DNA from: Lacrimispora amygdalina
GTDB lineage: Bacteria; Bacillota; Clostridia; Lachnospirales; Lachnospiraceae
DNA: 64,000 nucleotides
Direction of reading: 5' to 3'
NCBI RefSeq assembly: GCF_003432035.1
Contig: NZ_QOHO01000012.1
Span: 1-64,000 of the forward strand
Shown here: positions 7,671 through 19,797 of the stretch, one piece after another
Layout: the number at the start of each line of letters is the position of its first letter
Numbering within the stretch: position 1 is the stretch's first letter
Notes under the pieces: model-generated
Database searches by the model: none
Told to the model about the DNA's origin: nothing
The model's input: only the letters and a program-made list of their open reading frames with translations
Program-made: the position numbers and the translations under genes

Positions 7671-8498
7671 CTATTTTAAATACTTATTGATAATTTCGTC
7701 ATATTTTCCATTTGCTTTAATATTAGCAAGCCCTGCATTGAACTTATCCAGTAATTCCTGCTTATCTTTATTCATAATTGCAAATCCGTAAGGAGCACCT
7801 TCACTTTCCATTCCTTCAGGAATCATAAGCTTAAGTCCGCCTTCTTTAATGGAAGCTTTCATAATTGGTGAATCTTCCACACATGCCGCACTGTTACCAA
7901 GTATTACATCCTGATACATAGTTGGTGAATCATCAAAGACAGTTACTGTAAAACCATACTTTTCTTTCAGGCTGTTTGCAAAATCAGCACCAGCAGTACC
8001 GTTTTTAACTGCAACATTCTTACCCTTAAGATCTTCAAAGCTCTTAATGTCACTTCCTTCACCTACTACAAATGTCTGGGAGGCATTATAATATCCTTCA
8101 GAAAAAATCCACCCGGAATCAATACGTTCCTGTTTAATTGTGGCACCTGCAATAAGACCATCTGCCTGACCGGACTGAACAGCAGCAACTGCTGCATCCC
8201 AGCCAAGGCTCTGTAATTCATACTTAAATCCCTGGTCTTCTGCAATAGCAGCAAGCAAATCAACATCAATTCCTACAAATTCGTTCTTTTCATTGGTATA
8301 TTCAAATGGTTTGAAAACAGTATCGGTAGCAATAATCCATATTTTGTCATTTGCTGAGCCGTCAGAAGTCTTTGTTGTTTCATCTGCTTTTACAGATGTT
8401 TCTTTTGCAGTATCCTTCTTCTCAGGGGAACCGCAGCCTGTTAATAATACGCCACCAGTCAAAATTGTACATAAAACTAAAGCTAAAAATTTTTTCAT
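7671..8498 (-). CDS. Amino acid ABC transporter, substrate-binding lipoprotein
   Basis: A 275-residue extracellular solute-binding protein of family 3. The ATG at 8498 follows GAGGAG; a five-residue longer frame has no ribosome site of its own. Residues 1-21 are a signal peptide ending L-L-T-G-C with Cys22 as lipid anchor, then a Thr/Lys/Asp-rich linker. The mature domain holds F-K-P-F-E-Y, a family 3 hallmark near its start, and the D-V-D-L-L-A-A-I-A segment. It is the first gene of the importer operon and delivers ligand to the single permease. Confidence 0.93.
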   Translation of the reverse strand: MKKFLALVLCTILTGGVLLTGCGSPEKKDTAKETSVKADETTKTSDGSANDKIWIIATDTVFKPFEYTNEKNEFVGIDVDLLAAIAEDQGFKYELQSLGWDAAVAAVQSGQADGLIAGATIKQERIDSGWIFSEGYYNASQTFVVGEGSDIKSFEDLKGKNVAVKNGTAGADFANSLKEKYGFTVTVFDDSPTMYQDVILGNSAACVEDSPIMKASIKEGGLKLMIPEGMESEGAPYGFAIMNKDKQELLDKFNAGLANIKANGKYDEIINKYLK

Positions 8499-8565
8499 AA
8501 TTAATCTCCTCAATTATTTCATAATTTAAAACAGTAACAGTTTACATCATAACACTATAAAGGAT

Positions 8566-8648: not shown

Positions 8649-9581
8649 CTATATTCTCATAATTAATCCGCTGATTGTCATTCCGGCTGCTGTTCCGAAC
8701 AGAAGAATGGTATTTCCTTTTTTGATTCTTTTCTCTTCTAAGGCTAAACATAACATGTAAGGAATAGAAGCGGCAATCATATTTCCATAATCTTCAACAT
8801 GATTCATATATTTCCCTTCCTTAATACCTAACTTTTCCATAATTAAAGGCAACGCACGGCTTGCCTGATGAGGGATGATCAAATCTATATCTCCTAAAGA
8901 CATACCACTTTCTTTTTCCAATTGTTCTACAAACTCCGGGATTTTTTTAGCAACCAGTCTCAATACCTTAGGTCCGTTCATATCAAATAAATATTCATTT
9001 TTATTTTCTTCCGTATAGTGCCTTGGGTGAAGACTGCTGAGTCCTCCCCGTATTTCTGTGTCATGGACACCCTGGGTCCATGTCTTCCAAACACCAAACA
9101 TTACTCCTGATTCAGCGCTTTCGTCTTTTTCAACAATAACTGCAGCCGCCCCATCACTAAATAATTCATAGCTCTCCTTTTGTTCCGGATTAATACCAAG
9201 GGAAGCTGTTTCCGCCGACAGGATCAATACTCTGTTATACCGTCCTTCATGTACCATGTAAGAGATTGTATCAAGCGCTGTAATGAAGCTGGTACAGGTT
9301 GTATTAATGTCCATACAGGGAATTGGCCCTGAAGGTTCGAGTTTATCTAAGATAAGTGCTGCTGAACAGGGAATAGGCTGATAACCGACAGCACTTGCAT
9401 AAACAATTAAATCCATATCATCTATAGCACATTCTGCAGACAGAAGCGCCTTTTCAACAGCATTGACCGACATTGTGTAATGACTTTGTGTGTCATCCAT
9501 TCTATGACGTATATTATTGTCAAATCGTATAATTTTATTTCCTTTGTCTTTTCCATATCCGATAATTCTTAAATTCTTCAT
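8649..9581 (-). CDS. 3-oxoacyl-ACP synthase III-family condensing enzyme (FabH/OleA-like)
   Basis: A 310-residue thiolase-fold enzyme. The catalytic triad of the KAS III class is visible: Cys96 in T-T-C-T-S-F, His238 in I-I-P-H-Q-A-S and Asn267 in E-D-Y-G-N-M. The conserved S-D-G-A-A-A-V-I-V (142-150) and C-terminal G-T-A-A-G-M-T-I-S-G-L are also present. Such enzymes join an acyl thioester with malonyl-ACP or with a second acyl-CoA. It is the last gene of a five-gene minus-strand cluster in which its neighbours are an adenylating enzyme and an OleD-like reductase, so a specialised condensation is more likely than housekeeping fatty acid initiation. Its start overlaps the upstream gene by four bases (ATGA type). 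Confidence 0.87.
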   Translation of the reverse strand: MKNLRIIGYGKDKGNKIIRFDNNIRHRMDDTQSHYTMSVNAVEKALLSAECAIDDMDLIVYASAVGYQPIPCSAALILDKLEPSGPIPCMDINTTCTSFITALDTISYMVHEGRYNRVLILSAETASLGINPEQKESYELFSDGAAAVIVEKDESAESGVMFGVWKTWTQGVHDTEIRGGLSSLHPRHYTEENKNEYLFDMNGPKVLRLVAKKIPEFVEQLEKESGMSLGDIDLIIPHQASRALPLIMEKLGIKEGKYMNHVEDYGNMIAASIPYMLCLALEEKRIKKGNTILLFGTAAGMTISGLIMRI

Positions 9582-10870
9582 AATCTAATAACCCTCTTTA
9601 ACTTTTTATCAGTTGTATGTGTATATCTATCAAATGTCATGTCTATATCCATGCAGCCTAATCGTGATAATGTATTTGAAAACTCTGTCTTAATTTGTTT
9701 TTGTACTGATTGCTGATCGATATTCTTTTCATATTCTAATAAAATCCTTATAGCCTTTTTATTTTCCTGTATTACCTGATATTGCTTTATACCATTGACA
9801 TATAAGATACAACGGCTGATAATATCAGAAAATACTTTCGTATCATTGCCATTCTTATTTTCAAAAATAAATACATCATCTTCACGGCCTTCAATCTTCT
9901 CAAGAGCCATAAAATGACTTCCGCAAGGACACTTTTCTTTTTTATGCAATAAAACATCATTTAAACGGTATCTTACAATCGGCTGGGATCTTCTTGTAAA
10001 ATCAGTAATAACAGGAATAAAACGGTTTTCATCTATTTTTTCTTCTTCTATGAATACAATATCTTCATTAATATGCAACGTACCATATTCACAAGTGAAA
10101 CCCAAAAAGCCTTCGGTGCATTGATATACCTGATGGATGACATTTTGCCCAAATACACTTTTAAAGTATTCCTCATCCGTTTTTTCCAGAACCTCGGCAA
10201 CAGATATGACTTTTTTTAAATTCATATGAAGCTTACCTTCCTGTACAGCTTCAGCTAACAGAATTAGTACCGATGGAGGGGCAATTAGTATACTGGTATT
10301 TGACTGGTTTAGATTATGGATATGTTGTTCCAATGGTTTATAAATATCATAATAGGTAAAGCTAATTTTTCTTGTTTTCACATTTTCGTACAGTGTACTG
10401 TTTGCCCTTAAGAAAAAAGCAATTTCCTGCTTACCTATGGTATAGGGTAAAAATCGGCCTAAAATTGCACCTGTCCATATATCAGCTTCTTTCTGGCTTG
10501 CAATAAAAATCCCCTGATGTCCTGAAGTTCCAGAGGATAACCCTACAGTAAGACCATTTAACTTATTATTAAAGTTTCTGCCCTTTTCAGCAGATACCGC
10601 AAACTTTAAGGCTTCTTCTTTTTTTATATCTACACACACCAGCTCATCAAAATTCTCCATCATGACGGACTTATTTATTATGGGTAAAGAAAACAGATTA
10701 TCATTATCTTTCAGTATAGTTCTGTAATACAGAGAATATTTTTTAATATGCTTTAATAAATTTTTTATCTCCTTTTTTTGATATTTATGAATTGCTTCCC
10801 GGCTTCTGAATTTTTTTGAATTTCTGTATTTTAAGTAACTAAAAATGATCCTAAACTTATTGTGCGTCAT
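9578..10870 (-). CDS. F390-synthetase-related adenylate-forming enzyme
   Basis: A 430-residue member of the phenylacetate-CoA ligase/coenzyme F390 synthetase branch of ANL enzymes (TIGR02304-like). The phosphate-binding loop S-S-G-T-S-G-H-Q-G spans 112-120. The N-terminal F-R-S-R-E-A-I-H-K-Y-Q-K-K-E-I followed by an S-L-Y-Y-R segment is characteristic of the subfamily, as are Q-P-I-V-R-Y-R-L-N-D-V and the C-P-C-G-S-H-F-M-A-L-E-K-I-E-G-R-E-D-D hinge. The start at 10870 follows AGAGG; the six-residue longer ATG has no ribosome site. It should activate a carboxylate as an acyl-adenylate; in this context a beta-hydroxy or long-chain acid is plausible but unproven. It overlaps the MBL gene by 14 bases. 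Confidence 0.8.
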   Translation of the reverse strand: MTHNKFRIIFSYLKYRNSKKFRSREAIHKYQKKEIKNLLKHIKKYSLYYRTILKDNDNLFSLPIINKSVMMENFDELVCVDIKKEEALKFAVSAEKGRNFNNKLNGLTVGLSSGTSGHQGIFIASQKEADIWTGAILGRFLPYTIGKQEIAFFLRANSTLYENVKTRKISFTYYDIYKPLEQHIHNLNQSNTSILIAPPSVLILLAEAVQEGKLHMNLKKVISVAEVLEKTDEEYFKSVFGQNVIHQVYQCTEGFLGFTCEYGTLHINEDIVFIEEEKIDENRFIPVITDFTRRSQPIVRYRLNDVLLHKKEKCPCGSHFMALEKIEGREDDVFIFENKNGNDTKVFSDIISRCILYVNGIKQYQVIQENKKAIRILLEYEKNIDQQSVQKQIKTEFSNTLSRLGCMDIDMTFDRYTHTTDKKLKRVIRL

Positions 10871-11651
10871 TATATACCTCTTCTCCATGGGCGGAAATAA
10901 TTGAAACTCCCTTTAAAGCTGTTAATTTTTTTACCGTCTGTACGTAGGCCATATAATCATTCTGAATAAGTCTTGGTATCATACGCAGTCTGTATTTTAA
11001 AAAATCTGTTCCCCATACAGCATCAGCTACATAAAAAAGCTTTTTTTCCGGAATATATATACCGATCTGTCCATACGCATGGCCTTCTAACTCCATAAGC
11101 CAGACAGAACCATCTCCAAAAAGATCCTTGCCTTTAAAGCCCTTTAAAGGGGATTTATTATTAACACTTACTGACATAATTTGATTTTCCATACATTTTC
11201 CAATTTGATTTGGAAATACCAGTTCTTTGTATCTGGCACCAGTTATTTTTTTTCTGCATTTATCGCTCATGATTATTAAGGTATTTTTTATATCATGAAG
11301 TCCGCCGATATGGTCTGGATGAAGATGTGTTAAAATAATCATGGATAAATCACCTGGTTTAATGCCGTCTTTCCTTAACTGATATAAAATATGGTCTTTT
11401 TTTGTATAATAAGTTGGATTAATCAAATGATATAGCTTGGAAGTAAGTCCATTTTCGTATATTCTATGACTATAACCTGTATCTACAAGAATCTTACCGT
11501 ATGTCTTATGGTCTATTAGCATGACCCTGGCCCGAAAGATCACTTTTTTATGCTTTTTTATCTCTTTATACATCCGCTTTAAATCATTCATACAATATCC
11601 GCAGTTGTAGAACTTAATGCTTGTAATTTTGCTCTCGATACCATTTTGCAT
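10857..11651 (-). CDS. MBL-fold metallo-hydrolase
   Basis: A 264-residue metallo-beta-lactamase-fold protein with the dinuclear metal motif H-L-H-P-D-H at 109-114 and later ligands in G-H-A-Y-G, V-A-D-A-V-W-G and S-A-H-G. The N-terminal F-Y-N-C-G-Y-C (14-20) is shared with MBL proteins found beside F390-synthetase-like genes, which is why the start is set at 11651, before that motif, with AGGAAGG eleven bases upstream. The alternative ATG at 11591 would remove it. L-V-D-T-G-Y-S near 56-61 is the usual first strand of lactonase-like members. It overlaps the end of the upstream reductase gene by 38 bases. A thioesterase or lactonase step is possible; the substrate is not known. Confidence 0.83.
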   Translation of the reverse strand: MQNGIESKITSIKFYNCGYCMNDLKRMYKEIKKHKKVIFRARVMLIDHKTYGKILVDTGYSHRIYENGLTSKLYHLINPTYYTKKDHILYQLRKDGIKPGDLSMIILTHLHPDHIGGLHDIKNTLIIMSDKCRKKITGARYKELVFPNQIGKCMENQIMSVSVNNKSPLKGFKGKDLFGDGSVWLMELEGHAYGQIGIYIPEKKLFYVADAVWGTDFLKYRLRMIPRLIQNDYMAYVQTVKKLTALKGVSIISAHGEEVYNDAQ

Positions 11652-12609
11652 ACTTTTTAATACCTTCCTCAATGGTATAAACCGGTTTATATTCCAGTTC
11701 ATTTTTGGCCTTTTCTATATTTAAGGTCTGGCTAAAACCCAAAGTCATTAATGTATACCTCGTAAAAACCGGTTCTCTTTTTATCTTCATTATTTTGTAG
11801 AACCATTCAATGATCCCTACTATTTTAGACATAGCAGAATAATTTAATTTTAGAAACCTTGGATTTTGTCCAAGTTCTTTTAAAAATATCGATAGAATTT
11901 TTTTGAAAGCCATAGGCTCATCATTGGTTATGTTATAAACGGCACCGTCAATACCGTTTACAGTCATGGCCAGCCAAATACTATGAGCAGCGTTTTCAAC
12001 GTAAGTAATATCTACGAGGTTATCTCCGTTATTAAAGACAGGAATACCTATTACTTTATTTGCACGCATTAATCTGGGAATAATACTTGTATCACCTATA
12101 CCAAACAGTCCCCGTGGGCGGATTATAACTTTTTCAAAGGTACTGGTCTTAAAATCACTGATAGCTCTTTCTGCAAGAATTTTCGTCTGAATATAATAAT
12201 TCAACTCACTATTCCAGGCAACCTGGGTTTCTTTAATAAAATGCTGGTCTTTATTTCTTGTATAAATGCTGGGGGAAGAAATAAAGACTAATCGCTTTAC
12301 TTTATATCTTTCACATGCGTTTAATACATGTTGCGTCCCTTTCACATTTGCATTATAAAAGTCCTTTTCATACCCCCAGGCAGAAGATAAGGCGCCTGCA
12401 TGGACTACATATTCGCAGCCCCTTACCGCAGATAAAACATCACGCAGGCTTTCTAAGTTTCCCTTAATAAATGTTACGTTATCATTTTCAAGTTCGGCTC
12501 CCTTAACTGCATTTCTTCCAAATGCAGTTACTGTATAGCCTTTTTCTGTCAATAATTCCACAACATACTTTCCTAAAAATCCAGTGGCGCCTGTAACGCA
12601 AACTCTCAT
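11614..12609 (-). CDS. NAD(P)-dependent epimerase/reductase, OleD/3-beta-HSD-like
   Basis: A 331-residue extended short-chain dehydrogenase. The dinucleotide motif T-G-A-T-G-F-L-G lies at 7-14 and the catalytic Y-x-x-x-K appears as Y-I-Q-T-K around residue 140, with the preceding Ser in F-I-S-S-P-S. The overall sequence resembles 3-beta-hydroxysteroid dehydrogenase-like reductases such as OleD, which reduce a beta-keto acid to a beta-hydroxy acid, more than sugar-nucleotide epimerases. Its start overlaps the glycosyltransferase stop by four bases. In this cluster it would act on the product of the condensing enzyme; that is inference. Confidence 0.83.
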   Translation of the reverse strand: MRVCVTGATGFLGKYVVELLTEKGYTVTAFGRNAVKGAELENDNVTFIKGNLESLRDVLSAVRGCEYVVHAGALSSAWGYEKDFYNANVKGTQHVLNACERYKVKRLVFISSPSIYTRNKDQHFIKETQVAWNSELNYYIQTKILAERAISDFKTSTFEKVIIRPRGLFGIGDTSIIPRLMRANKVIGIPVFNNGDNLVDITYVENAAHSIWLAMTVNGIDGAVYNITNDEPMAFKKILSIFLKELGQNPRFLKLNYSAMSKIVGIIEWFYKIMKIKREPVFTRYTLMTLGFSQTLNIEKAKNELEYKPVYTIEEGIKKYAKWYREQNYKH

Positions 12610-13769
12610 AATGATGTTCCTCCAACTTTTTCATATCTGACCGAACCATCTTTATTTATCATGACCTTATTGTTTCTCCAAATGACCATTCCAGGCTTAA
12701 TCAGGCTATTTATATAATGGAGGGGCTGTAAATAAGCACTTATTATTTCAAATAGTATTATTTTTAAAGGTTCCTTTATTTTGAAGTATTGGCGCCGCTG
12801 ATAATAATTTAGAAAAGCAATCAGCACCTGAATACCAAAAATAATTGGAAGAATCCTGAAATTCCTGATTATTAATGTATATATGAAAATAAGTAAGGGT
12901 AAAGCAGTTGGTACTACAATTGTTAACAATGTGGATAACTGGAGTTTTTCTGCCATATATACATTGGCAAATACCATCCATCGTCTCATCAGATTCATGT
13001 AATGACTGAAGTTCTCAATAGTGGTTCCAACAGAACAGGGGCATGTGCTCTGAATAATTTGAATATTCTTATTACGCAATATTTTTGCTATTTCATACTC
13101 ATCTGATAGTTTGTCCTCAATTTTTTCAAAAATATTTAAATGAATAAACGTATCTTTTTTAGCCATATAAAACATGCCATTTAAACTGCCTACAGCACCC
13201 AGACCTGCTATTACCAGATACGTTAATAAGGTATTCCCATTAACAAATCCCACAACTAAATTTGTCAAGAAATCATATCCCATACGGTAATACGGCAGTC
13301 CAGTAATCACACAATCCTGCCTGTTAAGCTTATCTTTTAATTTATAAAGCTGGTTAAATGAAAGAATCACATCATCATCTGCTGCAATAAAAAATTCTCT
13401 TGCATAAGAAAGTGCTAACTTTTGTTTAAATACTTTTTCGTTTTTTTCTTTGGGTATATCTTTTGCAGTGATAATTTTTATATCTTTCCCTGTTTCTTCT
13501 TTTATATTTTTAACAATTCTGCCGGCTTCCTGATCGTTTTCATCTACGATCCAGATAAAATTTGCTTTTCCTCCATTTTTAACATTTGTCTTCAGGCAAT
13601 ATTCCAGATTACAATCACCTGATACAATTGGCTGAATTACAGAAAACTCATCCCCGTTCTCTTTTAAGGTTCCTGTTATCTGCTGACTGTAATAGTAGCT
13701 CTTTGCCATCATAAATCGCACGATATATAGCAGCAAATGCAAGCTGATTATAATAATTAATAAATTCAT
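12606..13769 (-). CDS. Membrane glycosyltransferase, family 2, ceramide-glucosyltransferase-like (HpnI-like)
   Basis: A 387-residue membrane-bound GT-A enzyme. Helix one spans roughly 2-20, two or more hydrophobic segments lie at the C-terminus. The donor-site acidic motif A-A-D-D-D-V is at 129-134, and M-R-R-W-M-V-F provides the R/Q-x-x-R-W acceptor-side motif of ceramide glucosyltransferases and HpnI. These proteins transfer a sugar to a lipid at the inner membrane. The ATG at 13769, five bases after AGGTGG, is preferred to a GTG three codons earlier. It is the first gene of the cluster and implies that the end product is a glycosylated lipid. Confidence 0.83.
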   Translation of the reverse strand: MNLLIIIISLHLLLYIVRFMMAKSYYYSQQITGTLKENGDEFSVIQPIVSGDCNLEYCLKTNVKNGGKANFIWIVDENDQEAGRIVKNIKEETGKDIKIITAKDIPKEKNEKVFKQKLALSYAREFFIAADDDVILSFNQLYKLKDKLNRQDCVITGLPYYRMGYDFLTNLVVGFVNGNTLLTYLVIAGLGAVGSLNGMFYMAKKDTFIHLNIFEKIEDKLSDEYEIAKILRNKNIQIIQSTCPCSVGTTIENFSHYMNLMRRWMVFANVYMAEKLQLSTLLTIVVPTALPLLIFIYTLIIRNFRILPIIFGIQVLIAFLNYYQRRQYFKIKEPLKIILFEIISAYLQPLHYINSLIKPGMVIWRNNKVMINKDGSVRYEKVGGTSL

Positions 13770-14163
13770 ACCATCCACCTGTCTCTTTACTTTTTATTAT
13801 CTTATCAGATTGTCTGAGAGAAAGATATAAAAAATATGTAGATTTGGTGATAAAATGATCAAATGTAATTAAGCCATTTAGAAGCCATTAAGATTTTCTG
13901 CTCATAATAAACTTATCAAGTGAAAGAGGAGAGGGATGTCACACAAAAATGGCAGTTAATAAAATAAAATCAATGATGGATAAATTGGAGAGGAAGTGAG
14001 CAGCCACGACAGCAGCTATATGATGAAAATGAAATTCCCGAAAAAATAAGAATAATTGCTTTATCTGATGGTAATATAATACCACAAAAACAACTTTTTT
14101 TCAAGTCTTGTAATTCCCCTGCGACAGGCGTAAACTGTGAATTTATCAGAAAGGAGTACGATT
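13770..14163. other. Intergenic region with a decayed small-peptide reading frame
   Basis: This divergent spacer drives the lipid cluster leftward and the DUF pair rightward. At 13949-13999 a plus-strand frame reads MAVNKIKSMMDKLERK and stops; a frame shifted by one continues from 13998 to about 14087 with L-Y-D-E-N-E-I-P-E-K-I-R in its middle. The join looks like an old frameshift in a roughly 45-residue peptide gene, with some resemblance to AgrD-type autoinducer precursors, but no cysteine is seen. No convincing consensus promoter was found. Confidence 0.35.
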
Positions 14164-15531: not shown

Positions 15532-18500
15532 TTATTCATGTCCGTGAGCAGAATTCTGTTCTTTTAAAAGATTCTTCTGTGCAGTTGAAAGCATGAGCTT
15601 AATACGGTTTAACTGATTTACCTCACTGGCACCCGGATCATAATCCACAGCAATGATGTTGGAATCAGGATATGCTTTTCTTAACTCCTTGATCACGCCT
15701 TTTCCCACAATATGATTGGGGAGGCAGCCAAAAGGCTGGGTGCACACAATATTATTGGTGCCGGTATGGATCAGTTCCAGCATCTCTCCGGTTAAAAACC
15801 AGCCCTCTCCGGTCTGATTGCCGATGGAGACAAAGCCGTCAGCCATATCAGCAAGGTTTCCGATATGAGCCGGAGCAGTAAAGTTCTTACTCTTTTCCAG
15901 CTCCCGTTTGGCAGTCTTGCGGAAGAATTCCAAAAGGGAAATTCCCATATTAGACAGAAATGCAGTGGATTTTTTCCCTCCCAGAAAATCTGCCTTAAAG
16001 TTTGTGTTATAAAAGCAGTACAGTAAAAAGTCCATTAAATCCGGCATAACGGCCTCTGCACCTTCTGCCTCCAGCAGTTCTACAATCCGGTTATTGGCAA
16101 GAGGAGAAAACTTCACCAGAATCTCACCCACGATACCAACCTTTGGCTTTTTCACGGAGGTTCTTGGCAGATTGTCAAAATCTCTGATGATGCCCTTAAT
16201 GTTACGTGAGAACTCCATCATATCAGCGGACTTCTTTGACAGGGATACAATACAGCGCTCTTTCCATTTTTCATGAAGGGAGTTAGCTGAACCAGGTATT
16301 TTTTCGTATGGCCGTGTGGCATACAGCACTCTCATAAACACATCTCCGTATACCACTGCCTGCATCGCTTTCGTCAGCAGCGGCAGTGAGATGGTAAAGC
16401 CGGGATTGGACTCCATATTGCCCGCATTGACTGAAATTACAGGTACCTGGCTCATGCCTGACTTATCAAGCGCTCTTCGGATAAATCCGATATAGTTGGA
16501 AGCACGGCAGCCGCCTCCGGTCTGGCTCATAAACACGGCAGTCCGGTCTAAATCATATTTGCCGGAAAGAAGTGCTTCCATGATCTGGCCGACTACGATG
16601 AGGGAGGGGTAGCAGGCATCGTTATTTACGTATTTTAAGCCTGTATCAATGGCAGAACGGTTATCATTCTGCAGAACCTCAACGCGGTAGCCGAATGCCC
16701 GGATCGCGGGCTGTAAAAGGTCAAAATGCAGAGGAGACATCTGAGGGCAAAGAATGGTATATTCTTTTTTCATCTCCCTGGTAAACACGACTCTGTTATA
16801 AGCGCTGGAGACCACTTTATGCTCAAAATGCCGCTTGTCACGGACCTTTAGGGCTGCGATAAGTGAACGGACACGGATTCTTGCAGCACCTAAGTTATTT
16901 ACTTCGTCTATTTTTAATACCGTATAAATTTTACCGGAACCGGTCAGGATATCATTAACCTGATCCGTGGTAACGGCATCCAGACCACAGCCAAAGGAAT
17001 TAAGCTGTATTAAGTCTAAGTTGTCTTCTTTTTTCACCAGGCTGGCAGCCCGGTAAAGCCGGGTATGATACATCCACTGGTCCGTTACCACCAGCGGCCG
17101 TTCAATGTCAGCAAGATGAGAGATGGAATCCTCAGTCAGCACTGCAAATCCATAGGAGGTAATCAGTTCCGGAATTCCGTGATTGATTTCCGGGTCAACG
17201 TGATAAGGCCTGCCGGCCAGTACGATGCCGTGCCTGTTATTCTCCTTTAACCACTGTAAGGTTTCCTCCCCTTTTTTCTCCATATCCGTACGGGATGCCA
17301 TGAGTTCCAGCCAGGCCCTATGGGAAGCGTCAGCAACTTCCGATGCAGGGATGCCAAATTCCCTGGTAAAGAATTCCGTTAAGCGTCTGGTTAATACTTC
17401 TTCATTGGTAAAAGCCATAAATGGATTTAAGAAACGGACCGATTCTGTTTTAATTCCTTCTACGTTATTTTTAATGTTTTCCGCGTAGGAGGTGACAATG
17501 GGGCAGTTAAAGTGATTGCCCGCATCCGGACTTTCGTTCCTCTCGTATGGTATGCAGGGATAAAAAATGGTTTTGATTCCCTGCTTAATCAGCCATTCCA
17601 CATGACCATGGGCGATTTTCGCCGGATAACATTCTGATTCACTGGGGATGGACTCAATTCCCAGTTCATAGATCTTTCTGGTGGACTGGGGGGACAGTAT
17701 GGTCCTGAACTTTAACGTATGGAAAAATACTGCCCAGAAGGGGTAATTCTCATACAGGTTTAAAACCCTGGGTATTCCGATAACTCCCCGTGTGGCAAGA
17801 TCCGCACTTAACGGCTCATAATCAAACATACGGTGGTTTTTATAATCGAACAGGTTGGGGATCTCCCTCCTTGTTTTTTCCTTCCCAAGTCCCCGCTCAC
17901 AGCGGTTTCCGGAGATAAACTGGCGTCCACCGTCAAACCGGTTTATGGTAAGGACGCAGTTGTTGGTGCAGCCCCTGCACCGGCTCATTGAAGTTTCGTA
18001 GTGGAGAGCCAGAATCTTGTCAAGATCCAGCATGGAGGTTTTTTCAGTCCCGTCATAACGCTCTCTTGCAATTAAGGCAGCTCCGAATGCTCCCATAATT
18101 CCGGCGATGTCGGGCCTTACAGCCTCACAGCCGGAGATTTTTTCAAAACTGCGGAGTACTGCGTTGTTATAAAATGTACCGCCCTGAACCACCACATGTT
18201 TTCCCAGATCGGAGGCGCTTGTTATTTTAATTACCTTAAATAATGCGTTTTTAATAACCGAATACGCAAGTCCGGCTGAAATATCAGAAACTTCAGCCCC
18301 TTCTTTCTGAGCCTGTTTCACATTGGAATTCATAAAAACAGTACATCTGGTTCCTAAGTCTGTGGGGTTTTTGGCAAACAGTGCCTCGGTTGCAAAATCC
18401 TCCACTTTATAGTTTAAGGAATTGGCAAAAGTTTCAATAAAGGAGCCGCATCCGGAAGAACAGGCCTCATTTAACTGGACGCTGTCTACCGTGTTATTCT

Positions 18501-19797
18501 TAATCCGAATGCACTTCATATCCTGTCCGCCGATATCTAAAATACAATCCACGTCCGGCTCAAAAAATGCTGCCGCATAGTAGTGGGAAATAGTCTCAAC
18601 TTCTCCCTCGTCAAGAAGAAAAGCAGCCTTTAATAAAGCCTCTCCGTATCCGGTTGAGCAGGACCAGACTATCTGGCTGTCTGACGTCATCTGTTCCTTT
18701 ATTTCTTTCATGGCGCGGACGGCAGTTGACAGCGGGGATCCGTTGTTGCTGCTGTAAAAGCTGTAAAGCAGGGTTCCGTCTTCTCCAACCACTGCAACCT
18801 TTGTGGTGGTGGAACCTGCATCAATTCCCAAAAAGCACTTGCCGTGATAGGCGGATAACTCGCTCTTTTTCACGCAGTGACTGTTGTGGCGGCTGATAAA
18901 TCTATCGTAATCTTCCTGACCGGCAAACAATGGTTCCATTCGTTTCACTTCAAAATCCATCTGAATACCATTTGACAATCGGGAAATCATATCTTCAAGA
19001 GAGATTTTTGCATCAGTCTTTCCTTCAGTGCTCATGGCAGCGCCGATGGCAGCAAAGAGATGGGAATGATCGGGAGCAATAATCGCGTCTCCTGTAAGAT
19101 TTAAAGTGCGGATAAAGGCTCCCCGCAGTTCAGGAAGAAAGTGAAGGGGGCCTCCTAAGAACGCCACGTTGCCTCTGATGGGCTTACCGCATGCCAGGCC
19201 GCTTATAGTCTGGTTTACCACTGCCTGAAAAATAGATGCTGCCAGATCCTCTCTGGTAGCTCCCTCATTAATAAGAGGCTGAATATCCGTTTTGGCAAAT
19301 ACGCCGCATCGTGCAGCGATTGGATAGATGGCCTTGTAGTTCGCAGCATATTCATCAAGACCTTTGGCATCCGTCTGCAACAGTGCGGCCATCTGATCGA
19401 TAAAGGAACCGGTGCCTCCGGCACAGATTCCGTTCATTCTCTGGTCAATGCCGCCGGTAAAATAAATAATTTTAGCATCTTCTCCCCCCAGCTCGATTGC
19501 TACGTCGGTCTGCGGGGCATAATCCTTAAGGGAGGCGGCTACTGCCACCACTTCCTGTATGAACGGGGTTTTTAAATGTCTGGACAGTGTAAGACCGCCG
19601 GATCCGGTTATGGCCGGGAGAAGATCCATGGGCCCTAACTGATCGTAGGCCTTCTTTAGAAGGCCTGCAAGTGTTTCCTGTATGTTTGCAAAATGCCGCT
19701 CGTAATCAGCGAACAATAGCTGCTCATCTTTGTCTAAAATAGCAATCTTTACGGTAGTGGAACCGATATCGATTCCTAAAGTATTGTATGTATTCAT
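15532..19797 (-). CDS. Acyl-CoA dehydratase activase fusion (BadF/HgdC ATPases + DUF2229 + HgdB-like)
   Basis: A 1421-residue protein with two ASKHA ATPase domains of the 2-hydroxyglutaryl-CoA dehydratase activator type. The first begins G-I-D-I-G-S-T-T at 8-15 with Cys125 in C-A-G-G-T-G-S-F and Cys164; the second begins G-I-D-A-G-S-T-T at 324-331 with C-S-S-G-C-G-S-F near 445. A Cys-rich R-C-R-G-C-T-N-N-C follows at about 600, then a DUF2229-like region and a C-terminal part resembling the dehydratase beta subunit (C-P-Q-M-S-P and S-Q-T-G-G-G-C-R). The cysteines suggest [4Fe-4S] clusters and ATP-driven electron transfer, as in HgdC. Large proteins of this kind are common in Clostridia, but their target is not established. 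No dehydratase subunits are adjacent. Its ribosome site is unusual and is listed separately. Confidence 0.88.

Follow-up and report, generated by a model that had tools for sequence, protein, structure and literature searches.

In the pathway of the Pseudomonas quinolone signal (PQS), PqsA activates an acid, PqsD extends it with malonyl and PqsE acts as a thioesterase; in Escherichia coli FabH, residues W32 and R36 contact coenzyme A (CoA). Among other condensing enzymes of the KAS III (beta-ketoacyl-acyl-carrier-protein synthase III) type, OleA carries Glu117 as its Glu base, and MxnB and CorB carry Val (V94) at the same position, according to one study (PMC4578411). MxnB fuses two carrier-protein-bound beta-keto chains and, in a second study (PMC5724707), is 12-fold faster on carrier-protein than on N-acetylcysteamine (NAC) thioester substrates. 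Here, we analyse a 64,000-nucleotide stretch of the Lacrimispora amygdalina genome (contig NZ_QOHO01000012.1; hereafter the window), in which five minus-strand genes encode, in order of transcription, a GT2/GT21 glycosyltransferase, an extended short-chain dehydrogenase/reductase (SDR), a metallo-beta-lactamase (MBL)-fold hydrolase, an adenylate-forming enzyme of family TIGR02304 (hereafter the ligase) and a KAS III enzyme (Table 1). The last four of these genes recur and co-evolve as a unit, and the glycosyltransferase is a swappable fifth part beside them. We read the window as holding a copy of a four-enzyme core that moves horizontally and probably builds a lipid, joined by a glycosyltransferase and acting through the steps proposed below; based on sequence comparison, we give this reading a probability of about one half.

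A recurrent four-gene core

A ligase profile run against a genome collection matched at least 594 stretches, 592 of which encode a relative. The best 80 were kept, and these loci, drawn from nine phyla, are the closest relatives of the ligase and hence a biased set. They were surveyed in all six frames with hidden Markov models, the core being defined as all four genes on one strand within 7 kb. A KAS III gene was found near the ligase in 74 loci, an SDR gene in 77 and an MBL gene in 79, and the core was complete in 72, spanning seven phyla (Bacillota, Actinomycetota, Fusobacteriota, Mycoplasmatota, Campylobacterota, Saccharimonadota and Pseudomonadota). Three of the eight incomplete loci are interrupted by contig ends (L071, L083 and L117) and two, both cyanobacterial, have no nearby KAS III gene (L074 and L084); in the other three, the KAS III gene lies beyond 7 kb (L097), no MBL gene was found (L098) or no SDR gene was found (L106). 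A plasmid collection yielded 83 matching records, and the core was complete in seven of the eight loci examined there, the eighth (L037) having its KAS III gene more than 7 kb away.

Genome samples not selected by similarity comprised 195 relatives and 398 genomes of the phylum, with the window's genome counted in both. TIGR02304 scored above its cut-off in 6 and 9 of these genomes, respectively. Among the 13 other positive genomes, 12 were examined (G496 was left out), and ten of them hold the core, although three of these ten (L147, L149 and L151) are probably the same contigs as L046, L049 and L059.

The four core proteins also share their evolutionary history: across 56 thinned loci their pairwise distance matrices correlate with r of 0.76-0.86, and for each of the six protein pairs none of 1000 permutations gave a value as high. 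Six phyla (Bacillota, Actinomycetota, Fusobacteriota, Mycoplasmatota, Campylobacterota and Saccharimonadota) are intermixed within a single lineage of the KAS III tree, a pattern suggesting that the unit has moved horizontally. A seven-gene relative in E. coli, at least 80% of which occurs in 671 of 5426 complete genomes of that species, adjoins narGHJI (L038 and L184); in one strain it is flanked by narI on one side and, on the other, by two tRNA-Tyr genes upstream of purU. Open-access literature searches turned up no paper on this seven-gene version. In a 0.9-Mb assembly of Candidatus Saccharibacteria (L045), the core is followed by genes resembling those for acyl carrier protein (ACP) and acetyl-CoA carboxylase (ACC), and the rest of that genome gave no further KAS III match.

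The first-pass annotation of this DNA had described five overlapping genes, read them as one operon for an acyl- or glycolipid-type pathway and drawn a parallel with the Ole system of olefin synthesis. The observation itself is confirmed, as the five genes are real and intact, and because the core recurs as a unit it amounts to more than chance. The interpretation as a whole is partly supported: both the single operon and the acyl or glycolipid type of pathway find support, and the Ole parallel holds for one enzyme of three, as detailed below. The expected recurrence elsewhere holds for the four-gene core and fails for the full set, with a GT21-type gene near 7 of 39 and 1 of 50 loci of the two KAS III types introduced below. 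Neighbourhood surveys therefore rule out the five genes as a conserved unit, since four recur and the fifth varies.

The condensing enzyme and its relatives

The window's KAS III matches PF08541 with 85 bits (cut-off 26.6), and its best NCBIfam model is PRK07204 (NF005541), where it scores 298.4 bits, below the cut-off of 402; a Paenibacillus cluster member reaches 483.5 bits on the same model. Its Cys-His-Asn triad is kept in all 90 cluster rows aligned. Against solved proteins, the cluster profile scores highest with MxnB (4v2p, 273 bits) and CorB (261 bits), followed by FabH (239 bits and below), 3h76 (140 bits; labelled 'PQS biosynthetic enzyme', which we take to be PqsD) and OleA (3s21/3s23, about 104 bits). 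That 4V2P is MxnB and 3S23 is OleA is borne out by the literature passages available for these entries.

Phylogenies and profile scores place the cluster KAS III in a separate clade next to MxnB and CorB, neither FabH nor OleA. We built trees of 112 and 85 rows, rooted at the midpoint for drawing only, the smaller one leaving out five long-branch rows. Cluster KAS III formed a single branch in both, with support of 99/96 in the larger and 99/88 in the smaller (65 cluster rows), and three OleA proteins were separate from it each time. The FabH-like rows, which comprise one E. coli FabH and others labelled by similarity, mostly from cluster-bearing genomes, stood apart as well, together with two other KAS III in the 112-row tree (98/97) and alone, as 15 rows, in the 85-row tree (100/94). 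A grouping of the condensing enzyme with housekeeping FabH, against which the first-pass annotation had staked its proposal, was thus not seen. One long-branch KAS III (L182) lay beside the cluster and OleA in the 112-row tree. When MxnB and CorB were added, they grouped with the cluster rows against FabH (99/96), forming an adjacent group that is not nested in the cluster branch.

Candidate assignments fell away on the same evidence. Housekeeping FabH was rejected at 158.9 bits against a cut-off of 292.1 (TIGR00747), together with the separate branch and a missing W32/R36 segment. OleA was rejected at 77 bits against a PRK09258 cut-off of 285, which the true OleA of an Ole comparison locus (L137) passes with 463 bits. 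The OleA Glu position is occupied by Ile in 69 and Leu in 21 of the 90 cluster enzymes (Ile70 in the window), and by Glu in all three OleA, which come from genomes with OleD above its cut-off. Together with the trees, these results remove the OleA part of the earlier Ole parallel. A motif E-[IV]-R-G-G-G, considered as common to MxnB and the cluster, was likewise dropped, being present in only 34 of 90 cluster rows and absent from the window.

A segment of 18 alignment columns that contains W32 and R36 of E. coli FabH is missing from 39 of the 90 cluster rows, the window included, and these deletion-type rows form one clade with support of 100/100. Both residues are kept in all 16 FabH-like rows. 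Five of the 39 deletion-type loci have an ACP gene nearby, accompanied in every case by FabD, FabF or ACC subunits. Those neighbours, and the lack of any further KAS III match in the Saccharibacteria genome, fit a carrier-protein dependence that we infer for the deletion lineage.

Ligase, hydrolase and reductase

The ligase is a member of TIGR02304 (499.4 bits; cut-off 251.9), a family named for its resemblance to F390 synthetase; against the F390 synthetase model itself (TIGR03335), it scores 19 of 459 bits. Its SSGTSG loop is kept in 96-98 of 98 relatives per residue and K429 in 93 of 93, conservation here and below being counted among relatives passing score thresholds. Cys266, Cys320 and Cys322 are conserved in the family along with Lys429. 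A structure model (mean predicted local distance difference test score, pLDDT, 87.9) finds its best fold matches among PaaK-type ligases at a template modelling (TM) score of about 0.70, led by BT_0428, PaaK1, AjiA1, NatL2 and ClxA. Family membership and modelled fold lead us to predict a PaaK-family adenylate-forming enzyme.

Homology to OleC, the second element of the earlier Ole parallel, was rejected, as the ligase has a PaaK fold and does not align significantly (E 0.022) with an OleC scoring above the OleC model cut-off (1008 bits; cut-off 900). That OleC comes from L137, where the neighbours confirm an Ole cluster: beside OleC and OleA stands an OleB-like protein matching haloalkane dehalogenases.

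The name F390 synthetase surfaces in the literature in other settings. A Desulfotalea fatty-acid gene cluster holds one, and is not the four-gene unit as far as the accessible text shows (PMC2649909); another is listed among genes that a different strain lacks (PMC5467263). A transposon-mutant table for a Pseudomonas plant pathogen includes a gene named coenzyme F390 synthetase, IYO_RS29540 (PMC9823363).

The MBL protein matches PF00753 with 61 bits (cut-off 22.7), and its metal ligands are kept throughout, H126, H128, D130 and H131 in 95 of 95 relatives and H208, D227 and H272 in 91 of 91. Its best solved profile matches, at about 93 bits, are 6cgy (deposited as a beta-lactamase) and then N-acyl homoserine lactone (AHL) lactonases including GcL; PqsE is a much weaker relative at 28 bits. 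PqsD and PqsE were accordingly dismissed as the nearest relatives of the window's KAS III and MBL proteins, MxnB and the lactonases scoring higher. The protein remains below every lactonase model cut-off listed, the best being 51 of 325 bits (4-pyridoxolactonase) and 47 of 390 (AttM).

The SDR belongs to PF01370 (127 bits; cut-off 20.9), and its Y139 and K143 are kept in 92 of 92 relatives. Judged by its matches it is OleD-like, below the OleD equivalog cut-off: it shares 29% identity with OleD (E 1e-50), its two best NCBIfam models are OleD-type reductases at 208-210 bits, and it scores 208 of the 580 bits set for the OleD equivalog. The OleD relation is the part of the earlier Ole parallel that stands. 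HpnA, named a hopanoid-associated sugar epimerase, comes third at 146 bits. Among solved proteins, sterol-4-alpha-carboxylate 3-dehydrogenase leads with 104 bits, followed by an unnamed SDR (65 bits) and a dTDP-glucose dehydratase (63 bits). The catalytic residues reported by the first-pass annotation are thus present and also conserved among relatives.

Exchangeable partner genes

The window's glycosyltransferase matches PF13506 (GT21) with 62.5 bits (cut-off 21.7). Its motif residues D82, D134-D136, D226, R266 and W267 are kept in all nine aligned rows, and Leu263 stands at the Q/R of the (Q/R)xxRW motif. Used as a profile against solved proteins (E up to 0.1), it retrieved two distinct PDB sequences, both ceramide glucosyltransferase (E 2e-10), which upholds the similarity noted at first; as a single sequence it matched no solved protein. 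The best structural matches of its model (pLDDT 87) are hyaluronan synthases in a structure library to April 2026, and with 39 bits it falls far below the HpnI cut-off of 310. We predict a ceramide-glucosyltransferase-like enzyme, which would use a lipid acceptor and a UDP-sugar donor.

Partner genes were counted within 8 kb of the ligase, using five glycosyltransferase queries and setting aside seven loci without a KAS III row. A gene-clustering pass, which merged SDR and MBL proteins (probably from overlapping or fused frames), was used only to find accessory genes. Deletion-type loci hold a glycosyltransferase in 34 of 39 cases and an ATP-grasp gene in none; the glycosyltransferase is GT21-like in 7 of the 39 loci and otherwise GT1-like or GT4-like, making three families. 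Loci of the other type hold an ATP-grasp gene in 43 of 50 cases, an accessory gene termed c4 in 28 and a glycosyltransferase in one, Paenibacillus caui (L057), which has GT21 and GT1 matches and no ATP-grasp match. For the ATP-grasp partner, PRK06849 is the nearest model, below its cut-off. The c4 family is weakly GNAT-like, with one of three members scanned matching PF13480 below cut-off, and in Paenibacillus urinalis the gene downstream carries a GNAT annotation.

Proteobacterial versions carry further sets of partners. Those of E. coli and Burkholderia include a PAP2 phosphatase, a fatty-acid hydroxylase (PF04116; 67 of 475 bits against the OlsE model) and a desaturase, and those of Paracoccus and Ketogulonicigenium a sulfotransferase with a TetR regulator. 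Another family of 215-223 aa, c12, is found beside the core in several genera, Enterococcus and Fusobacterium among them (L048, L055, L090, L034, L148 and L057); the one member scanned had no Pfam or NCBIfam match.

A proposed pathway and its alternatives

In the proposed pathway, KAS III would take carrier-protein-bound acyl chains, not acyl-CoA, and join them to malonyl- or beta-ketoacyl-carrier protein. The SDR would convert the new ketone to a hydroxyl, the MBL hydrolase would cleave the thioester (or lactone) to give a free hydroxy acid, and the PaaK-like enzyme would adenylate this acid and hand it to an acceptor, be it CoA, ACP, an amine or a hydroxyl. The membrane glycosyltransferase would finally attach a sugar, yielding a glycolipid. 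Other lineages would replace this last step with an ATP-grasp enzyme, often accompanied by the weakly GNAT-like protein, with a sulfotransferase, or with a PAP2 phosphatase together with fatty-acid hydroxylase and desaturase. Tentatively, we extend this to an undescribed family of bacterial lipids: a portable core of MxnB-like KAS III, SDR, MBL and PaaK-like enzymes may move between phyla and acquire lineage-specific head groups, namely sugars in one branch, ATP-grasp-dependent conjugates in the other, and sulfate or hydroxylated, desaturated chains in Proteobacteria, among them roughly one complete E. coli genome in eight, and the KAS III of the sugar branch may have become restricted to carrier proteins by loss of the segment with its former CoA-contact residues.

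Several observations weigh against this reading or parts of it. The core is missing around two TIGR02304 relatives with weak scores (290 and 282 bits). Among the 51 other-type KAS III rows, W32 is kept in 44 and R36 in only 2 (Lys in 28, Ala in 13); since R36 is rarely kept there, CoA contacts may be weakened in that type too, so that it would be the deletion, rather than weakened CoA contacts, that sets the sugar branch apart. In 34 of the 39 deletion-type loci, including the window's, the 8-kb neighbourhood yielded no ACP gene. Because the deletion type is one clade, the glycosyltransferase and ATP-grasp counts describe lineages, not independent events, and the link between deletion and glycosyltransferase is essentially one lineage event. 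The GT4 gene near Microbacterium-type clusters lies on the opposite strand in the two loci checked (L056 and L061) and may be unrelated. For the MBL protein, thioesterase and lactonase activity look the same at the level of sequence, and adenylation may come first instead of last, its order being the least certain step.

A pathway modelled on PQS would begin with activation of an acid by the ligase, followed by malonyl extension by KAS III, thioesterase action of the MBL protein and reduction of the product by the SDR; by analogy, what it makes would be a signal or a small beta-hydroxy or keto acid and not a membrane lipid. Aryl- or acyl-acid ligases are common in the PaaK family, and PqsE is detectable, though weak, as an MBL relative; we consider this outcome unlikely, given that the KAS III profile prefers MxnB (273 bits) to 3h76, taken to be PqsD (140 bits), that the closest MBL relatives are lactonases, and that partner genes in some loci (GT21, ACP, ACC, FabD, FabF, fatty-acid hydroxylase and desaturase) point to long acyl chains. 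Distinctly less probable is a surface-polysaccharide or capsule module, in which the SDR would be a sugar epimerase and the condensing enzyme and ligase would do no more than decorate a glycan with an acyl group. The SDR does sit in the broad epimerase family PF01370 with an HpnA match, a glycosyltransferase is present and its GT1 and GT4 alternatives are sugar transferases, yet the SDR best matches OleD-type reductases and the sterol dehydrogenase, and the five queries found no glycosyltransferase in 49 of the 50 other-type loci.

The homology of the SDR to OleD, a lactonase-like MBL protein and an analogous set of activities (condensing, hydrolase, adenylating and SDR) would suit an Ole-type pathway of head-to-head fatty condensation, reduction and beta-lactone or olefin formation, with the MBL protein replacing OleB. 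Such a pathway appears very unlikely in view of the Ile or Leu that replaces the OleA Glu in all 90 cluster enzymes, the low profile score and long separate branch of OleA, the PaaK fold of a ligase with no significant OleC alignment, and the lack of an OleB-type alpha/beta hydrolase among the five genes; we assign the cluster to KAS III-based lipid biosynthesis and not to the Ole systems. That the condensing enzyme is simply an extra fatty-acid initiation enzyme, a FabH paralogue among unrelated neighbours, is close to refuted. Such a paralogue would share the KAS III fold family and the Cys-His-Asn triad, whereas the observed enzyme branches apart from FabH-like proteins (which come mostly from genomes with the cluster), has lost the W32/R36 segment and belongs to a core that recurs and co-evolves; its own genome, moreover, holds a separate FabH-like gene on contig C18.

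The genes belong to families that are named or nearly so, and we found no described pathway for them in the open-access literature; no paper on the four-gene unit was recognised in the open-access text available, a body that leaves out preprints and most subscription papers and so does not imply absence from print. The database names 'F390 synthetase-related', 'beta-ketoacyl-ACP synthase III' and 'hypothetical protein' hide that these genes belong together. The ligase family is widespread, and the core occurs across very different envelopes, those of Acholeplasma, Saccharibacteria, Fusobacterium, Paenibacillus, Microbacterium and E. coli. A lipid product, if that is what the core makes, would be a surface or signalling molecule for which the open-access literature yielded no description.

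The locus and its surroundings

The window is part of contig C24 in our numbering of a 5.94-Mb draft genome. The five open reading frames (ORFs) overlap head to tail and span 8649-13778 (Table 1). The starts used were 13769, 12609, 11651, 10870 and 9581, of which the internal ATG codons at 10870, 11651 and 13769 suit the positions where relatives begin. With these starts, the overlaps are 4 bases (glycosyltransferase/SDR), 38 (SDR/MBL), 14 (MBL/ligase) and 4 (ligase/KAS III), reproducing those first reported. The block is AT-rich: 1-kb windows have a G+C content of 32-36% at 9-14 kb and 35% at 8-9 kb, against 37-47% in the remaining windows of the first 24 kb. The promoter-like site in Table 1 comes from a scan that returned 32 sites, compared with 28.1 (standard deviation 5.4) in shuffled sequence.

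Table 1. Features of the five-gene block and its upstream region in the window
Feature	Positions	Strand	Remarks
KAS III-type condensing enzyme, 310 aa, deletion type	8649..9581	-	without FabH W32/R36 segment; C96-H238-N267 triad; Ile70 at OleA Glu position
PaaK-fold adenylate-forming enzyme (predicted), TIGR02304 'F390 synthetase-related'	9578..10870	-	ATG 10870; alternative longer ATG start 10888
MBL-fold metallohydrolase, AHL-lactonase-like, seven metal ligands intact	10857..11651	-	ATG 11651; alternative longer ATG start 11702
Extended SDR, OleD / 3-beta-hydroxysteroid dehydrogenase (3-beta-HSD)-like ketoreductase (predicted)	11614..12609	-	family and similarity searches
Membrane GT2/GT21 glycosyltransferase, ceramide-glucosyltransferase-like (predicted), variable fifth gene	12606..13769	-	ATG 13769; alternative GTG 13778
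Promoter-like site upstream of operon, TTGAAA-17-TATTAT with TG	14076..14104	-	consensus match only

On one side, the block adjoins a binding protein of an amino-acid ATP-binding cassette (ABC) transporter (7671-8513), which was matched in only 3 of 25 genomes searched, one match, at 87% identity, being from another family; this gene may be a recent acquisition too. At 15532-19797 lies a minus-strand ORF of 1421 aa, which we take to resemble a fused protein of the 2-hydroxyacyl-CoA dehydratase activator type. Elsewhere in the same genome, contig C96 (28000-44000; L152) carries a second KAS III gene of 323 aa, with neighbours labelled by eye as a GT1-like glycosyltransferase, enoyl-CoA hydratase-like genes and a 2-oxoacid oxidoreductase-like pair; it is perhaps a second, unrelated metabolite cluster.

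Comparison with known systems

The nearest characterised KAS III enzymes are MxnB and CorB (273 and 261 bits), the stand-alone ketosynthases of myxopyronin and corallopyronin. Like them, the cluster enzymes have no Glu base, with V94 there corresponding to Ile or Leu here. MxnB and CorB serve type I polyketide synthase (PKS) assembly lines and form alpha-pyrones, whereas the partners in the cluster are an SDR, an MBL protein and a PaaK-like ligase, and the window's KAS III lineage has lost a segment that MxnB and CorB keep. With OleABCD, the cluster shares a homologous SDR and a similar overall set of activities; unlike OleABCD, it has neither the OleA Glu nor OleB, and its ligase is not OleC. 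That ligase belongs with the TIGR02304/PaaK family, which includes PaaK, F390 synthetase, NatL2, AjiA1 and ClxA, and is predicted to share their PaaK-like fold.

The glycosyltransferase recalls the GT21 ceramide glucosyltransferases and HpnI, with PF13506 above cut-off and solved profile matches that are ceramide glucosyltransferases, although in contrast to ceramide and hopanoid systems, a Pfam scan of the five genes found no serine palmitoyltransferase or hopanoid gene. PQS synthesis through PqsA, PqsD and PqsE follows a similar logic of ligase, KAS III and MBL protein, but PqsD-type enzymes and PqsE are not the nearest relatives of their counterparts here, and no PqsA relative stands among the top fold matches of the ligase.

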